Assembly: GCA_039924845.1 (NCBI GenBank)
Contig: JBDTAC010000080.1
Span: 1-55,296 of the forward strand
Direction of reading: 5' to 3'
From: Bacteroidia bacterium
GTDB lineage: Bacteria; Bacteroidota; Bacteroidia; DATLTG01
DNA length: 55,296 bases
Shown: positions 1,934-49,371 of the stretch, piece by piece
Position numbering within the stretch: position 1 is the stretch's first letter
Layout of the letters: each line of letters opens with the position of its first letter
The notes under the pieces: generated by a model
The model's input: the letters and a program-made list of their open reading frames with translations, nothing else
The model's database searches: none
Told to the model about the DNA's origin: nothing
Program-made: the position numbers and the translations under genes

Positions 1934-1954
1934 TTCGAAAAATTATTTTTTCAA
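1934..1954 (-). repeat. Dispersed AT-palindrome repeat supplying the sir2 stop codon
   Basis: This is a copy of the AAAAATAATTTTTC family reading on the minus strand. Its AAA AAA TAA supplies the last two lysines and the stop codon of the Sir2 gene. Confidence 0.85.
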
Positions 1955-4029: not shown

Positions 4030-4050
4030 TTCAAAAAAATAATTTTTCGA
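4030..4050 (+). repeat. Dispersed AT-palindrome repeat between divergent promoters
   Basis: A near-consensus plus-strand copy lying between the divergent T9SS genes. Confidence 0.85.
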
Positions 4051-11425: not shown

Positions 11426-11443
11426 CGAAAAATTATTTTTTTG
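11426..11443 (-). repeat. Dispersed AT-palindrome repeat, atpC-secA cluster copy 1
   Basis: A minus-strand copy 17 nt after the atpC stop, the first of five copies in under 200 bp. Confidence 0.8.
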
Positions 11444-11462
11444 GGACGCCTTTTTTGTCTTT

Positions 11463-11480
11463 GGAAAAATATTTTTTTGA
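11463..11480. repeat. Dispersed repeat, atpC-secA cluster copy 2 (TAT centre)
   Basis: A variant with TAT in place of the TAA or TTA centre. Confidence 0.6.
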
Positions 11481-11494
11481 ACCACTTTTAATTG

Positions 11495-11518
11495 TTTTGA
11501 AAAAATAATTTTTCAAAA
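11495..11518 (+). repeat. Dispersed repeat, atpC-secA cluster copy 3
   Basis: A plus-strand copy with complementary arms ttttg and caaaa. Confidence 0.85.
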
Positions 11519-11554
11519 CAAATTTATCTCATCACAAAAATCTTTTTTTTACCC

Positions 11555-11577
11555 TTCGAAAAATTATTTTTTCGGAA
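11555..11577 (-). repeat. Dispersed repeat, atpC-secA cluster copy 4
   Basis: A minus-strand copy with ttcg and cggaa flanks. Confidence 0.85.
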
Positions 11578-11589
11578 GCACAATTTATC

Positions 11590-11613
11590 GTTTCAAAAAT
11601 TATTTTTTTGAAC
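11590..11613 (-). repeat. Dispersed repeat, atpC-secA cluster copy 5
   Basis: A minus-strand copy with complementary gtt and aac ends, 35 nt before the secA -7 box. Confidence 0.85.
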
Positions 11614-14978: not shown

Positions 14979-15148
14979 GCAATATTATTTTTCAACTTAC
15001 AAAAGAAGAATTTGAAAATATCAGATTTCAAATTGATATTTTAAATCAAAGTATGTCATCACAGATTGTGATGACATACCCGACAAAACGTCCAAACTCT
15101 TTTTTGCATTACGTTTTCACGGAACAAAGAATCGGTTTCAAAAAATAA
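14967..15148 (+). pseudogene. Remnant of an ORF6N-domain DNA-binding protein
   Basis: The frame between two repeat copies encodes about 60 residues, including YYFQLTKEEFENIRFQ, SQIVMTYP and HYVFTEQRIGF. These match blocks of ORF6N / KilA-N-type proteins, where FQLTKEEFENLR, SQIV.S and YVFTEQGVAML occur in this order. The N-terminal part of the domain and everything after VFTEQ are missing. No start codon with a plausible initiation site is present. A repeat copy ends the frame as FKK-stop. I call it a decayed gene. It also contains a 29-nt perfect hairpin (15051-15079). Confidence 0.7.
15051..15079. other. 29-nt perfect inverted repeat in the ORF6N remnant
   Basis: Perfect 13-bp arms GTATGTCATCACA and TGTGATGACATAC flank a 3-nt loop. 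No T-run follows on either side, so it is unlikely to be an intrinsic terminator. Confidence 0.8.
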
Positions 15149-19313: not shown

Positions 19314-19331
19314 AAAAATAATTTTTCAAAC
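19307..19331 (+). repeat. Dispersed repeat overlapping the DUF5686 gene stop
   Basis: The TGA stop lies in the left arm (gtttTGA). The arms gttt and aaac are complementary. Confidence 0.85.
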
Positions 19332-19348
19332 ACGAAATATCCTTGCAT

Positions 19349-19390
19349 AAAAAAGACTTCAAAAAAATAATTTTTCAGAAGGTCTTTTTA
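19349..19390 (+). terminator. Repeat-cored intrinsic terminator
   Basis: A dispersed-repeat core at 19360-19376 is framed by complementary arms AAAAGAC-CTTC and GAAG-GTCTTTT, with one offset base. It ends in a T-run after the DUF5686 gene, 36 nt behind the stop. Confidence 0.65.
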
Positions 19391-25004: not shown

Positions 25005-26312
25005 ATGCGGATTTCGGTAGAAGTTTTCTACAAGAAAATCCATATTCGGAATATTAAAAATTTGCCGCAAAATCAGCCAGTAGTGCTCGCTTGCAATCAC
25101 CCAAATTCTTTTTTAGATCCAATTATCGTTTCTGTTTTTGTGAAAAATCGCTTGCATTATTTGGCGCGTTCGGATGCATTTAATACGCCGTTTAAAAAAT
25201 GGATTCTCGGAAAGATAGGATTAGTACCGATTTATCGCTTGCAAGAAGGCGCCGATAAATTGCATAAGAACGAAGAGACATTTGATATATGTGCTGAAAT
25301 TTTAGCAAAAAATGGAACCATTATTATTTTTTCCGAAGGTTTGTGCATTCAAGAAAGGCGACTTCGTAAATTAAAAAAAGGTACTGCACGATTGGTTTTT
25401 GGAGCAGAAGCCGCTCGAGATTTTAACATGGATTTGTTGATTGTTCCAATTGGAATGAATTATTATAAACCGGAGAATTTTAGAAGTGATTTGGTAATTA
25501 ATTTCGGGAAACCAATCAAATTAAAAGCGTACGAAGAATTATATAAAGAGGATAAAGCGCGTGCTATTAATGCACTTACAGGTGATTTGGAAAAACAAAT
25601 GGCGGCAGAATTATTAATTATCGAGGAGCAAAAAAATGATTTTTTGGTAGCGGATTTGGAAGAGATATATGGAAAAGAAATACTTTCAAAAAATAATTTT
25701 TCAGAAAGCAAATCGGAGAAAAAGTTTTTACTGAGTTGCGGAATTGCAGAAGCAATAAATCGTCTTCAAAAAAATAATTTTTCGAAGGCGGAAATTTTTC
25801 GAAAAAAGATTGTCGCATATTCAGAAGAATTGGAAAAAAATAATTTGCGCGATTATTTTTTCTGGAAAAATCCAATTACATACGCTCAAAAAAATAATTT
25901 TTCGATACAAGTTTTCGAACTTGTTATTGGCTTTCCTCTTTTCGTTTACGGATTAATTGTTCATTATGTGCCGTATAAAATTTCGTATTCGCTCACCAAT
26001 AAAATCGTTAAAAACATAGAGTTCTTCAGCTCTGTGAATTGTAGCGCTGGCACTTTTATTTTCTTAATTTTTTATATAATGGAGAGCCTTTTACTGATTC
26101 ATTTCTTCAATTTTTTCGTATTGATTGGCTTTATTCTTTTACTTCCGCTAAGCGGAAAATATGCTTTGCGTTATCAGCGTTTGATCAAAAAAGTAAAAGG
26201 AAAAATAAGTTTAAGACGTTTAATTAAAAAAGATAAATCGTTCGTTGAACATCTTTTTTCAGAGCGAGAGGAAATTCTTCAGGAGTGGAAAGAGATAAAG
26301 TTTTTTGTATAA
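25005..26312 (+). CDS. PlsC-type glycerolipid acyltransferase with C-terminal membrane helices
   Basis: About 435 residues from ATG 25005; a TTG at 24978 would add nine. The acyltransferase domain shows the block I motif NHPNSFLD (catalytic His and Asp), block III FSEGLCIQERRLRKLKKGTA and VPIGMNYY. It would acylate lysophosphatidate or a related lipid at the inner membrane. After residue about 220 comes a variable linker carrying three clear and one partial dispersed repeat, read as SKNNFS, QKNNFSK, EKNNLR and QKNNFS. Membrane helices (VFELVIGFPLFVYGLIVHYV; FIFLIFYIMESLLLIHFFNF) and a basic tail follow. The exact substrate is unknown. A perfect 42-bp palindromic terminator closes the gene. 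Confidence 0.85.
   Translation: MRISVEVFYKKIHIRNIKNLPQNQPVVLACNHPNSFLDPIIVSVFVKNRLHYLARSDAFNTPFKKWILGKIGLVPIYRLQEGADKLHKNEETFDICAEILAKNGTIIIFSEGLCIQERRLRKLKKGTARLVFGAEAARDFNMDLLIVPIGMNYYKPENFRSDLVINFGKPIKLKAYEELYKEDKARAINALTGDLEKQMAAELLIIEEQKNDFLVADLEEIYGKEILSKNNFSESKSEKKFLLSCGIAEAINRLQKNNFSKAEIFRKKIVAYSEELEKNNLRDYFFWKNPITYAQKNNFSIQVFELVIGFPLFVYGLIVHYVPYKISYSLTNKIVKNIEFFSSVNCSAGTFIFLIFYIMESLLLIHFFNFFVLIGFILLLPLSGKYALRYQRLIKKVKGKISLRRLIKKDKSFVEHLFSEREEILQEWKEIKFFV
25683..25708 (+). repeat. Dispersed repeat inside the acyltransferase gene, copy a
   Basis: Arms ctttc and gaaag frame the core. It is read in frame as SKNNFSESK. Confidence 0.85.
25764..25787 (+). repeat. Dispersed repeat inside the acyltransferase gene, copy b
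   Basis: A full consensus with cttc and gaag arms, read as LQKNNFSKA. A partial copy follows at 25831-25848. Confidence 0.88.
25885..25905 (+). repeat. Dispersed repeat inside the acyltransferase gene, copy c
   Basis: Read as QKNNFS, just before the first C-terminal membrane helix. Confidence 0.85.
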
Positions 26313-26352
26313 AAAAGAGGCTCGAAAAATTAATTTTTCGAGCCTCTTTTTT
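26311..26352. terminator. Perfect 42-bp palindrome, bidirectional terminator
   Basis: Two perfect 21-bp arms start with six A and end with six T, so each strand reads hairpin then T-run. The centre is a repeat core with TTAA; the outer arms are GAGGCTCG/CGAGCCTC. It lies between the convergent acyltransferase gene and the T9SS gene at 26371. Confidence 0.88.
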
Positions 26353-26370
26353 ATGTAGAGAATACTAATT

Positions 26371-30493: not shown

Positions 30494-32140
30494 ATGAAAA
30501 TAGCTTTAGCGCAACTTAATTATCATATCGGCAATTTTGAAAAAAATGTTTTCAAAATAAAAAATACTATTCAACAGGCAAAGCTGGGAAAGGTTGATTT
30601 AATAGTATTTTCGGAACTTTCGGCGTGCGGATATCCTCCAAAAGATTTACTGGAATACACACATTTTATTCAGCAATGCGAAAATGCGGTAATGGAAATT
30701 GCCAAACAATGTGTTGGAATTTCTGCCATTGTTGGTGCGCCAAGCGCGAATAAAAATGCACACGAAAAAAAAATTTTCAATGCGGCTTTTTTTCTTGAAA
30801 ATGGAGAAATAAAATCCATACATGCTAAAACATTATTACCCGATTACGATGTGTTTGACGAGTGTCGACATTTCGAACAGAATAAAAAATGGGACGTTGT
30901 ACATTTTAAAAATCATAAAATTGCTTTGACGATTTGTGAAGATTTATGGTACGATGAAAATCCCTTGTACACCGTTAATCCAATGGATGAATTGATGAAA
31001 CACAATCCGGATTTTATTGTTAATATTGCTGCTTCGCCTTTTTCTACTACGCACGCTGAAATTAGAAAATCTGTTATAACAAAAGCTGTAAAAAAATATA
31101 AATTACCCTTATTTTATGTGAATCAAGTGGGTGCGCAAACCGATTTAATTTTTGATGGTGGCTCTATGGTCATAAGCAATGATGGCAAACCGTTCGACGA
31201 ATTAAATTCTTTTTCAGAAGATTTTAAAATCTATGAAATTTCATCCGATAAAGAAGAATTAAAAAAAATTAGCGAAGAAAAAACACTTCAAAAAAATAAT
31301 TTTTCGAAAGCTGAAAAAATACAATCTGCTTTGGTGTTAGGGATTCGAGATTATTTCGAAAAAAATAATTTTAAAACGGCTATTGTCGGGCTTTCTGGCG
31401 GAATTGATTCTGCCGTAGTGTTGGCTTTGGCTTGTGAAGCGCTCGGTGGAAAAAATATTTTTTCAGTGTTGATGCCGTCTAAATTTTCTTCCGATCATTC
31501 CGTTGCTGATGCGCTCGAAATGGTTAAAAATATCGGTTGTCATCATCAACTTATTTCCATCGACAATACGTTTGACACACTCGAAAAAACGATGCAGCCG
31601 CATTTTGAAAATCGTCCATTTAACCTGGCAGAAGAAAATATGCAGGCGCGTATCCGCGGAATAATGTTGATGGCTTTGTCAAATAAATTCGGTCACATTT
31701 TATTGAATACTTCCAACAAAAGCGAAATGGCTGTGGGCTACGGAACACTCTACGGCGATATGTGCGGCGCATTGTCCGTTATCGGGGATGTGTATAAAAC
31801 AGAAGTATACGAATTGGCGCACACAATTAATTCAACTAAAAAAGTGATTCCAAAAAATATTTTTTCGAAAGCTCCTTCTGCGGAATTGCGTCACGATCAA
31901 AAGGATTCTGATTCCTTGCCGGATTACGAAATTTTAGATAAAATTTTATTTCAATACATCGAAAAAAAACAAAGTGAAAAAGAAATTATTTCTTCTGGTT
32001 TTGATATTTTGTTGATAAAAAAAATAATTCAAATGATAAATAATAACGAATACAAACGTCATCAAACGCCGCCTGTATTAAGGGTTTCGGATAAAGCTTT
32101 TGGAACAGGTCGTAAAATGCCAATTGTAGGAAAATACTAA
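30494..32140 (+). CDS. nadE: Glutamine-dependent NAD+ synthetase
   Basis: The 548-residue two-domain enzyme makes NAD+ from deamido-NAD+, glutamine and ATP. The N-terminal nitrilase domain (residues 1-260) shows the Glu-Lys-Cys triad: FSELSACGYPP, KTLLPDYDVFDECRHF and LTICEDLWY. The C-terminal synthetase domain starts near residue 290 with the P-loop GLSGGIDSAVVLAL and contains TSNKSEMAVGYGTLYGDMCG and KAPSAELRHDQ. The interdomain linker carries a full repeat copy read as LQKNNFSKA and a second partial copy (EKNNF). Two more repeat-like TAT variants lie in the synthetase domain at 31448 and 31848. nadE near gldB-gldC also occurs in Flavobacterium. Confidence 0.97.
   Translation: MKIALAQLNYHIGNFEKNVFKIKNTIQQAKLGKVDLIVFSELSACGYPPKDLLEYTHFIQQCENAVMEIAKQCVGISAIVGAPSANKNAHEKKIFNAAFFLENGEIKSIHAKTLLPDYDVFDECRHFEQNKKWDVVHFKNHKIALTICEDLWYDENPLYTVNPMDELMKHNPDFIVNIAASPFSTTHAEIRKSVITKAVKKYKLPLFYVNQVGAQTDLIFDGGSMVISNDGKPFDELNSFSEDFKIYEISSDKEELKKISEEKTLQKNNFSKAEKIQSALVLGIRDYFEKNNFKTAIVGLSGGIDSAVVLALACEALGGKNIFSVLMPSKFSSDHSVADALEMVKNIGCHHQLISIDNTFDTLEKTMQPHFENRPFNLAEENMQARIRGIMLMALSNKFGHILLNTSNKSEMAVGYGTLYGDMCGALSVIGDVYKTEVYELAHTINSTKKVIPKNIFSKAPSAELRHDQKDSDSLPDYEILDKILFQYIEKKQSEKEIISSGFDILLIKKIIQMINNNEYKRHQTPPVLRVSDKAFGTGRKMPIVGKY
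31286..31310 (+). repeat. Dispersed repeat in the nadE interdomain linker
   Basis: A full consensus with cttc and gaag arms, read as LQKNNFSKA at about residue 265. A degenerate copy lies 69 bp downstream at 31355-31377. Confidence 0.88.
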
Positions 32141-43822: not shown

Positions 43823-44803
43823 TTACTTTTCTCTGTTCATAAGACTTTCAGCAAACGATTTCAAAATTATTTTTTTAGATGCCGGAATTTTTATGGCGTC
43901 CATATTTTTCATCGCTTTTTTATAATACTGCTGAATGTACGATTCTGCAATGCTTTTAACGCCCAACTCATCGTATATTTTTTTGACAGCACTTATTTTC
44001 TCTTTCGAAAAATTATTTTTTTGAGCAACTATTTTTTTTAATTTTTTTCGCGTGTCATTGTCTGCTTTATCGAGCGCTGAGATGAGCAACAATGTTTTTT
44101 TATTCGCAAGAATATCGCCGCCCGTTTGTTTTCCGAATTTTGTTTCGTCGCCATACACATCCAACAAATCATCTTGTAATTGAAAAGCAATTCCGATATT
44201 TTTTCCGAACGCATATATTTTTTCTGCTTCCGTATTTGTCGCTCCCGCCGTAAGCGCGCCTATTTTCAAGCTGGCAGCAATTAACACGGCCGTTTTTAAC
44301 GTAATCATTTCCAAATAATCGTTCACAGAAACTTTTTTCTGCGTCTCGAAATTCATGTCCAATTGTTGTCCTCTGCACACTTCAATCGCGGTAGAATTAA
44401 AGATAGAAAACACATTTGAAAAACTTTTTTTCTCACATTTACTGAGACATTTATAAGCTTCTACCAACAAAGTATCACCACTTAAAATAGCTACATTTTC
44501 ATTCCATTTTTGATGCACCGTTGTTTGATTGCGACGCAAAGGAGCTTTGTCCATAATGTCATCGTGCATCAATGTGAAATTATGAAACAACTCGATGGAA
44601 AGCGCAGCTGGCAAAGCTTTTTTGATATTTCCGCCAAACATTTCGCAAGCATTTAAAAGCAAAACGGGGCGCGTTCTTTTTCCATCTAACGAAAGCATAT
44701 AGGTAATTGGGCGGTATAATTCTTCCGGTGAAAAAATTAATTTTTCAGAAAAATTTTCTAACTCGATGCTAAAAAAATCTCGGAGTTGTTCAATTGTTTT
44801 CAC
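43823..44803 (-). CDS. Polyprenyl diphosphate synthase (trans-isoprenyl)
   Basis: This 326-residue enzyme extends allylic diphosphates with isopentenyl diphosphate. The first Asp-rich motif is HDDIMD (followed by KAPLRRNQTTVH), the second QLQDDLLDVYGDETKFGKQTGGD. GKRTRPVLLLNACEMFGG is conserved. The chain length (geranylgeranyl or longer, for example menaquinone side chain) cannot be told. It starts at GTG 44803, overlapping the stop of the epimerase gene by four bases (GTGA), so translation is coupled. Three repeat copies lie inside it (44729, 44004, 43859), read as EKLIFSP, QKNNFSK and KKIILKS. Confidence 0.93.
   Translation of the reverse strand: MKTIEQLRDFFSIELENFSEKLIFSPEELYRPITYMLSLDGKRTRPVLLLNACEMFGGNIKKALPAALSIELFHNFTLMHDDIMDKAPLRRNQTTVHQKWNENVAILSGDTLLVEAYKCLSKCEKKSFSNVFSIFNSTAIEVCRGQQLDMNFETQKKVSVNDYLEMITLKTAVLIAASLKIGALTAGATNTEAEKIYAFGKNIGIAFQLQDDLLDVYGDETKFGKQTGGDILANKKTLLLISALDKADNDTRKKLKKIVAQKNNFSKEKISAVKKIYDELGVKSIAESYIQQYYKKAMKNMDAIKIPASKKIILKSFAESLMNREK
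43859..43880 (-). repeat. Dispersed repeat at the 3' end of the prenyl synthase gene
   Basis: Read as KKIIL near the C-terminus. Confidence 0.65.
44004..44024 (-). repeat. Dispersed repeat inside the prenyl synthase gene
   Basis: A near-consensus copy read as AQKNNFSKEK in the loop before the last helices. Confidence 0.85.
44729..44749. repeat. TTAA-centred repeat near the prenyl synthase N-terminus
   Basis: Read as SEKLIFSP at about residues 19-26. Confidence 0.65.
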
Positions 44804-46671: not shown

Positions 46672-49371
46672 TCACTGCAATTGATACAAAATAATATTTT
46701 TATCTGGACTTCCTGTAATCAAATAAAGTTGCCCATCGTTGTTCATATCTGCAATACTAAAAAGCGTATTTCCATACAAAAGAAAGCCGCTACAAAGTCT
46801 ACCGTTATTGTCAATCAGAAATAATTCGTTTGTGCTTTTAGACACCACTCCTATTCTTCCACTATTATCAGGATACAAAAAGAATAAAGGTTTTTTATTC
46901 ATTTCCGTTTTAAAATCATAGCTGAACGAATAACTTTTATCTGGATTATAAACCGACAATTTTTCATGCGTGAGAAAAATATATTTTCGAATTTTAGTAT
47001 TATCTAAATCTTTGTAATCAAAATATGGATTTTCTTTAAAATCACCAATCTTAATGGTTTCTGGCTCATCTCGAAAACTTAAACGAAGAATATTTCCAAG
47101 TGTATCGGCACAAATAATTTTCGACTGCTCCAAGTTTTTTTCAGCATCAATAAAAAAATGAGTTACGGGAGCATGTAACGTATTTTGCAATTGAAGTCGC
47201 GTTCTCCCTTGCCTATCTAAAAAATAAGTATCTCCAGTACTGTCAATCGCTACGATGTAATCCTTTCCAGCCACCGTACAACGCTCAATAGGTGCGAGAA
47301 TCACATTTTTTGAAACATCAAATTTCCAGCCATCTACCAAACTTCCATCCGCCTCATAATTATAAATATGTTTATCTGCGCAAGCAATCATCATCCGATA
47401 ATCTTTGTTGTTTTCATAATCAAATACAGCAAGCGAATTAGTAGCGTTCGCAGGCAATTTAACAGGATAACCTTCCACATTTTTTCCATTTCTATCAATC
47501 AAATAAATAGAAGAAGTGGTATTAAAAAGCAATTGCAATTTGTCGTTTTTGTACCGATCAATTTGCGTTACACCACCTTTTATTTTTTTATCCAGCGATT
47601 GTTTCCATAAAATTTTTCCGGTATTACTGATGAGATAAATTTTATTCGCATCGTCTTGCACAAAAATTTCTTTTTCACCTGTTAAATGGTTCGTAACAAA
47701 ATACGGTTGCGTGCTCACCGTGGTGTCTAATTTTATTTCCCAAATAGAGTTACTTTCTTTTTTGTAGATGGGATTTCGTTTGAAATAGGCATTTGTATAA
47801 AACACTCCTTTATCCGCACTAAATTGAATTCCGAAAGCTTGAAATTTTTGAAGAAGTGGCAATTTATTTTCGAGCTCTTTCGAAAAATTATTTTTTAAAA
47901 CTGATTCCAACACTTTGGTGGAACGAGCAATGTTCGCATAAAAATAAACATTCGATTCTTTGTCTAAATGATCGCTTGAAAACTCTTTGTAATAGATATC
48001 ATTTTGCAATGTTTTGCCACTTTTATTGGCTTGAATAAATTTTTTCAATGCCTCCGAACTGTTTGCAAACACAACATAATCTCCAACAATAGTGTAATAA
48101 TTATTTGTTATCGACGAAAAAATAGTTCCAAAAATTTCGGAAAGTTCATTTTTTACCGGCAAATGATAGATCCCAACACCTTGATAATTCTCAGAATCCG
48201 TTTTTAACTCCAAAAGTGCATTCAGGGAATCTGTTAAATTATTTAATGTCGCTTTTGCATTCTCGATTTCATTACTATGAAAAATAGCATACGCATTGTC
48301 CGACCAATCGCTGCTTTCAGGTTCAGTAACAACCAAGGCAATTTCATTTTCGGTCCACGAAAAAATATTTTTTTTTACGACATTTACGAGTGTGTCAGAA
48401 TTTTTTTTTCGATTTAAAAATTCAGAATAATCATTTTTAAAAGAAGTAACATCACTTATTCCCATCAAAAGAAACATTGCTGTATTTGCAGGTACAACGC
48501 TTGTTAACTCAATATTTTGAGGCTTTTGTTTAGAAAATAAATTAAGAAATTTTTTTTGAGAAATGTCTGCTACAGAAAAACCATCCAGCATTACTTCGCT
48601 CGGTTTTACTGAAAAATCAAGCGCCGTCCAATTTGCAAAAGGTGAAAAGAAGTCTCGATTTTCATTTTCTAAATACGTATTTAAACTCGAATGGATTCGT
48701 TCATAATTCACGAAAAGTGTTGCATCTACGGCTTTTCCAGCTGTATTAAATACTTGTGAAAAATTTTTATCCTGCAGTAAAGATGTGCCATTTTCTGTTT
48801 GCTGAATGGCTTTTTGTACAAGTGTTAAATTAAATCCGGCAATAAAAATACCTTTCGAAAAAGCATAATTAAATTTCGTATTTTTTTCTACAGAGATTGA
48901 ATTTACTGATATTCCATCGAAATTTTGTGTGTATTTTTTTTTATCCTTAAATGATTTATTAATAAAATCCTCTACTATTTCACGCTTAGTAATATCAGGC
49001 AAACTGTAGGAAAAAAGGAAATCTAAATGATTTTTTTGTGTTTCGTGAGCAGAAATAAAAAAAGGATTTTCATCCAACAATCCAATAATATCAGGAGAAT
49101 TTTGAATAAGCGAATCTATAATAAATCCATTTTTATTGATGTCCGAAAAAATATTTTCCGATAAAAAATCTTGCCAAATAATGTTATTCTGAGAAATTTT
49201 TTTCCAAAATATATCTGCTGAATTACTTCGAATAATAAAAACAGCGTCCGCAGGGATTGCATTAATAGCAGTACTTACAGGTGTTTTTATTTTTCTAAGA
49301 TAAAAAAAACCAAAAATTCCTGCTACAATAACAGCAGTTACAAAGGTTCCGAAAAATATTTTTTTGAACAT
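46672..49371 (-). CDS. Large envelope protein with N-terminal anchor and C-terminal beta-propeller-like domain
   Basis: This 899-residue protein has one N-terminal membrane helix ([20 protein letters not shown], residues about 8-27). Residues about 40-560 are a soluble region with [17 protein letters not shown] and [20 protein letters not shown], resembling DUF3352-like proteins. Residues about 580-899 contain PQQ-like propeller strands ([59 protein letters not shown]). It lies 50 nt behind rnhB on the same strand. Function is unknown. The first residues MFKKIFF and internal segments ([24 protein letters not shown]) are encoded by repeat copies or variants. Confidence 0.7.
47878..47900 (-). 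repeat. Dispersed repeat inside the 899-residue envelope protein gene
   Basis: Read as VLKNNFSKE near residue 490. TAT-centred variants in the same gene lie at 48359-48377 and 49145-49160. Confidence 0.8.
49347..49370. repeat. TAT-centred repeat across the start of the envelope protein gene
   Basis: The copy with ttc and gaa ends covers codons 1-7 (MFKKIFF). Confidence 0.6.

Follow-up and report, generated by a model that had tools for sequence, protein, structure and literature searches.

Several copies of one short sequence lie in the part of a PlsC-type acyltransferase gene that encodes the linker of the protein, within a stretch of 55,296 nucleotides from a Bacteroidia bacterium (hereafter, the window). 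This raises the question of why a word of DNA should recur inside a coding sequence, as a selected peptide, as a copied element or as a signal read in the DNA itself. The original prediction placed three full copies and one partial copy in the linker, encoding SKNNFS, QKNNFSK, EKNNLR and QKNNFS. Both the copies and, upon translation, the four peptides are found as described:

25005 to 26312, forward strand: PlsC-type acyltransferase gene, whose linker is the site of the motif copies (PF01553 profile match, residues 11-151)
25632 to 25645, forward strand: two-mismatch copy AAAAATGATTTTTT in the PlsC gene (QKNDF)
25689 to 25702, forward strand: exact AAAAATAATTTTTC, copy 1 in the linker (SKNNFS; KNNFS is residues 229-233)
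25770 to 25783, forward strand: exact AAAAATAATTTTTC, copy 2 in the linker (QKNNFSK; extended CTTCAAAAAAATAATTTTTCGAAG)
25836 to 25849, forward strand: half copy in the linker, left arm only, 11 of 14 matches (EKNNLR), from the sequence and a gap-free alignment to orthologues
25890 to 25903, forward strand: exact AAAAATAATTTTTC, copy 3 in the linker (QKNNFS; extended GCTCAAAAAAATAATTTTTCGA)

Alignment with 28 orthologues gives this linker 130 residues, which is also the typical length in the other proteins, so that the shorter linker implied for proteins lacking the repeats is not observed. Because linker length is that of typical orthologues, the PlsC copies were made by substitution rather than by insertion. 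KNNFS is absent from the linker of all 28 orthologues; a conserved KNNFS linker encoded by different DNA, which would have spoken against a DNA-level signal, is therefore not seen. The QKNDF copy at 25632-25645 may be ancestral, since ND is common to many orthologues at this place.

The acyltransferase repeats are a local corner of a genome-wide feature. The 14-mer AAAAATAATTTTTC, an AT-rich word, has 869 exact copies in the whole 2.66-Mb genome and the reversed word none; the motif as a whole amounts to hundreds to about two thousand copies. The genome is one draft assembly (101 contigs, 99% complete, five small contigs being mostly N), and site statistics beyond the whole-genome counts refer to 1.14-1.43 Mb of the 2.66 Mb, read as stretches. 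In this sample, 469 exact copies stand where a third-order Markov model predicts 3.75, and the ratio of observed to expected falls gradually as the number of mismatches rises (about 125, 16, 4.6, 1.6, 1.1 and 1.0). The window itself contains 143 matches at no more than two mismatches, compared with 15.0 +/- 4.5 in dinucleotide shuffles. They include the following sites:

31292 to 31305, forward strand: exact motif inside nadE (KNNFS)
44007 to 44020, reverse strand: exact motif in the polyprenyl synthase gene (KNNFS, in place relative to 6kd7)
47882 to 47895, reverse strand: exact motif in the gene for an 899-residue protein (KNNFS)
19314 to 19376, forward strand: tandem exact pair, 49 bp apart, in an intergenic gap; this spacing is preferred genome-wide
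11427 to 11607, no strand assigned: cluster of exact and near-exact motifs in a single intergenic gap
1937 to 1950, reverse strand: exact motif in a 31-bp convergent gap
4035 to 4048, forward strand: exact motif in a divergent (promoter-side) gap

With the first three sites, the peptide does recur in each of the three unrelated proteins for which this had been stated. KNNFS is enriched about 130-fold (55 observed, 0.4 expected), which could suggest selection for the peptide or shared protein ancestry. However, 54 of the 55 occurrences are spelled with the codons of the motif, where codon usage predicts 40%, and permuted peptides are not enriched. The other frames are equally affected (KIIF, 92 against 9.6 expected; KNYF, 32 against 3.7; KLFF, 27 against 6.6), so that enrichment extends to all usable frames, and so are the gaps between genes, where the density is at least ten times that of coding sequences. 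Together with the orthologues that lack KNNFS, codon identity, frames and gaps refute an origin at the protein level, to which we give virtually no chance. The signal is at DNA level, as originally proposed, and translation of the motif yields the KNNFS peptides as a by-product. Despite the preference for gaps, coding copies remain many-fold above chance.

How the coding copies arose can be examined where solved homologues are available. In KsgA, TrmB, KdsB, an HbdH-like enzyme and the prenyl synthase, motif copies replace aligned residues of the homologues. The copies of NadE and PanC sit in loops longer than those of the best-matching homologues and, judging from these alignments, may have been inserted. 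In-place copies and graded mismatch enrichment point to accumulation by point substitution, as for the uptake sequences of Pasteurellaceae (USS) and Neisseriaceae (DUS). In the uptake sequences of H. influenzae and N. gonorrhoeae, a gradual mismatch gradient was taken as evidence for gradual molecular drive (Bakkali, PMC1939737). Since such a smooth gradient is not expected from copying, a copied element is an unlikely source. A mobile intergenic repeat (REP/BIME or MITE) spread by a transposase would account for the many gap copies and for pairs at fixed spacing, and like REP/BIME the motif is dense between genes. Unlike these elements, it shows no hairpin covariation and, in most coding copies, no sign of insertion or copy-paste; its flanks share an AT pattern rather than a sequence, and no discrete unit with shared boundaries is seen. 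With the unchanged PlsC linker and the in-place copies of the five enzymes, this reading is largely refuted and very improbable.

The motif is lineage-specific and has the form A-tract, gap, TTCAAAAAAATAATTTTTC(A/G)AA, gap, A/T-tract. In the extended consensus, derived from 358 exact sites, an A-rich tract at -15 to -11 is followed by five loose bases, TTC and the A-tract; on the 3' side of AAAAATAATTTTTC come (A/G)AA, loose bases and an A/T tract at +22 to +25. Weaker AT peaks occur near -26, -37, +37 and +48, and copies inside genes keep the AT tracts at about -13 and +24. Single-base changes are nearly forbidden at A positions 1-3 and T positions 9-10, whereas central A-to-T swaps are common (AAAATTAATTTTTC, AAAAATTATTTTTC and AAAAATATTTTTTC). 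Strict arms around a swap-tolerant centre suggest that the recognised feature is an A-tract, a TpA-containing centre, a T-tract and a C.

As the motif is nearly palindromic, lies near gene 3' ends and is dense in convergent gaps, it could be thought an intrinsic terminator or another RNA hairpin element, the more so as one variant of it lies within a real terminator (26309-26354). Yet the arms do not covary in any register, column pairs across them being independent, and artificially recombined halves have the same folding energy as the real sites, be the context coding, tandem, divergent or convergent. Moreover, 39 exact sites of the sample fall in divergent gaps and 139 are centred in genes. 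The absence of arm covariation and of excess folding indicates that the element acts as double-stranded DNA and not as an RNA hairpin. A terminator as the general role is thus refuted, and the hairpin reading as a whole is extremely improbable; individual copies may terminate. The element at 26309-26354 lies between convergent genes and is a textbook bidirectional terminator, a perfect 23-bp inverted repeat (ATAAAAAAGAGGCTCGAAAAATT and its complement) in which AAAATTAATTTTTC is found on both strands. Taken together, it is very probable that the motif is a sequence-specific double-stranded DNA motif accumulated by substitution.

The motif is tolerated mostly outside genes. With coding and gap classes taken from a simple gene caller written for this analysis, exact sites number 0.14 per kb in coding sequences, 1.4 in divergent, 1.9 in tandem and 2.1 in convergent gaps, that is, a density in gaps about 12-fold that of coding sequences. 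At no more than one mismatch there are 0.76 sites per kb (mean spacing 1.13 kb), and the average spacing overall is about 1.1-1.3 kb. One orientation is favoured in genes (113:26), and same-strand copies prevail by about 2:1 in tandem gaps. Over the arbitrarily oriented contigs, 434 exact copies are forward and 435 reverse; a replication-polarity (KOPS-like) role was provisionally set aside, the orientation skew per contig giving only p=0.046. Start-to-start distances between pairs favour 35-40 bp (17 against 7 expected) and 48-51 bp (30 against 4), and the preferred spacings follow steps of roughly 12 bp (for example 19314/19363). In tandem gaps, the last 15 bp before a start codon hold 37 copies on the same strand and 6 on the opposite one, and in many of these gaps an ATG follows a few bases after the motif. 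Extending the distance to 30 bp gives 42 same-strand copies (for example at 15141 and 16453 of the window). At the other end of genes, 39 exact sites of the sample overlie the gene end in the frame where the TAA of the motif would be the stop codon.

Several of these properties bring to mind a chromosome-architecture motif, in which selection would keep thousands of binding sites for a nucleoid or topology protein particular to the lineage (NAP, gyrase-type strong site or boundary factor). The A-tract, TpA and T-tract with AT tracts spaced by roughly 11-13 bp form a bending and wrapping signal, the AT oscillation extends to about +/-45 bp around the motif, the preferred pair spacings look architectural, and both the same-strand bias in tandem gaps and the lack of a pilus uptake machinery in the genome would agree with such a role. 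Nucleoid proteins, however, usually read degenerate sequence and the core is here a nearly invariant A4-[W]-T4-C. Copies in conserved genes and in all frames resemble tolerated cargo, the gradual mismatch gradient is typical of drive, and the motif is missing from the rest of the class. We consider this main rival to DNA uptake possible but unlikely.

Extreme over-representation of the motif, a short and non-mobile word, is specific to its lineage, as for USS and DUS. Among 394 other genomes of the class, none of which belongs to the same order, the highest count of AAAAATAATTTTTC is 14. About 380 kb sampled from five relatives contained no motif copy and no comparable word. In three relatives (G142, G058 and G067), AAAATATTTT/AAAAATATTTT, possibly a weak cousin of the motif, is mildly over-represented, by about 6-7-fold at most. 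Related phages were considered and discarded: across 2.9 million viral contigs the 19-mer gave five single matches, as chance would allow. Going by their titles, the papers found to contain the strings do not describe the motif word in bacteria, and no Bacteroidetes uptake sequence was named in the literature searched. Lineage restriction, very high copy number and the lack of an evident function would suit over-representation through some repair, replication or methylation process, with neither uptake nor architecture involved; HIP1 of cyanobacteria, which shares these traits, is a precedent. Nevertheless, HIP1 is GCGATCGC, a short GC-rich, perfect 8-bp palindrome linked to methyltransferase sites (PMC4390886), whereas the present motif differs in sequence, with an all-A/T centre and extended AT flanks. 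A HIP1-like origin appears improbable.

The likeliest drive behind the accumulation would be biased uptake of self DNA, the motif being a candidate uptake signal; on this analysis we would put the chance of it at a little below even. A protein that binds double-stranded DNA would recognise the core together with the stiff or bent AT sequence on either side, and matching sequences would reach high copy number through a drive process. Under natural transformation, DNA with a good match would be taken up and recombined more often, so that alleles nearer to the consensus would spread, as for USS and DUS. Density, two-sided AT tracts, genic orientation bias and the mismatch gradient favour biased uptake, as do the origin by substitution, the lineage restriction, the lack of arm covariation and the near-absence of the motif from two accessory-looking stretches. 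Conversely, the 2:1 same-strand bias in tandem gaps and the 37/49-bp spacings argue against it, since uptake predicts neither. In line with uptake, the genome contains ComEC, DprA, ComM-like and HhH/ComEA-like genes; three of these (ComEC, DprA and ComM) occur in nearly all bacteria and are of little weight as proof. A further point against uptake is that neither a type II/IV secretion ATPase (PilB/PilT/GspE, PF00437) nor a secretin (PF00263) was found in the 99%-complete genome, which excludes the known pilus-based receptor route. In favour of uptake, self-DNA preference was measured in one member of the Bacteroidota, Riemerella columbina, whose motif was not identified (PMC7965970). We tentatively propose that the motif could be a Bacteroidota self-DNA uptake sequence that evolved independently of USS and DUS and works through another outer-membrane receptor, with neither type IV pili nor secretin.

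Comparison with the known systems helps to place this proposal. Like the Pasteurellaceae USS, the motif has hundreds to thousands of copies at about one per kb (USS spacing is about 1 kb; PMC7811141), combines a strict core with flanking AT tracts (PMC7811141), and occurs in and between genes with one genic orientation favoured, as described for both USS and DUS (PMC2346458), and with a gradual mismatch gradient. It differs from USS in its core (USS has a 9-bp GC-containing core), in carrying AT tracts on both sides, and in belonging to another phylum and to a genome with no pilus ATPase or secretin. With DUS it shares copy number, in-place accumulation and overlap with gene ends and starts, but DUS, of 10-12 bp, is unrelated in sequence and has the type IV pilin ComP as its reader, for which no machinery was found in this genome. 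The bias towards gaps, about 12-fold here, is stronger than that of USS, which speaks against the uptake reading. Uptake sequences are not known to be proven in more than two families of bacteria, each of which relies on type IV pili. If confirmed, an uptake signal would be the first for the phylum; uptake sequences would have evolved again with another receptor, and the motif would offer a sequence handle on the passage of DNA through the outer membrane of Bacteroidota. If architectural instead, the site would be unusually dense and strict. On either reading, a DNA-level process rewrites proteins, and is the reason why KNNFS, KIIF or KNYF is found in dozens of unrelated enzymes.

The two motif-poor stretches were named from reading their translations, family names elsewhere being those of profile matches. 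A polyhydroxyalkanoate-type cluster of 18.7 kb (contig C14) has only one motif site and was probably acquired; it contains two phaC-like genes and duplicated phasin-like genes. A copper/heavy-metal efflux region (C57:1-20000; CusA/CusB/CusC-like proteins and a multicopper oxidase) has very few sites. Genes with several motif copies include those of RecJ (L088:18096-19805, three copies) and MutY (L076:2558-3634, two copies); a bias towards genome-maintenance genes has been reported for USS and DUS.
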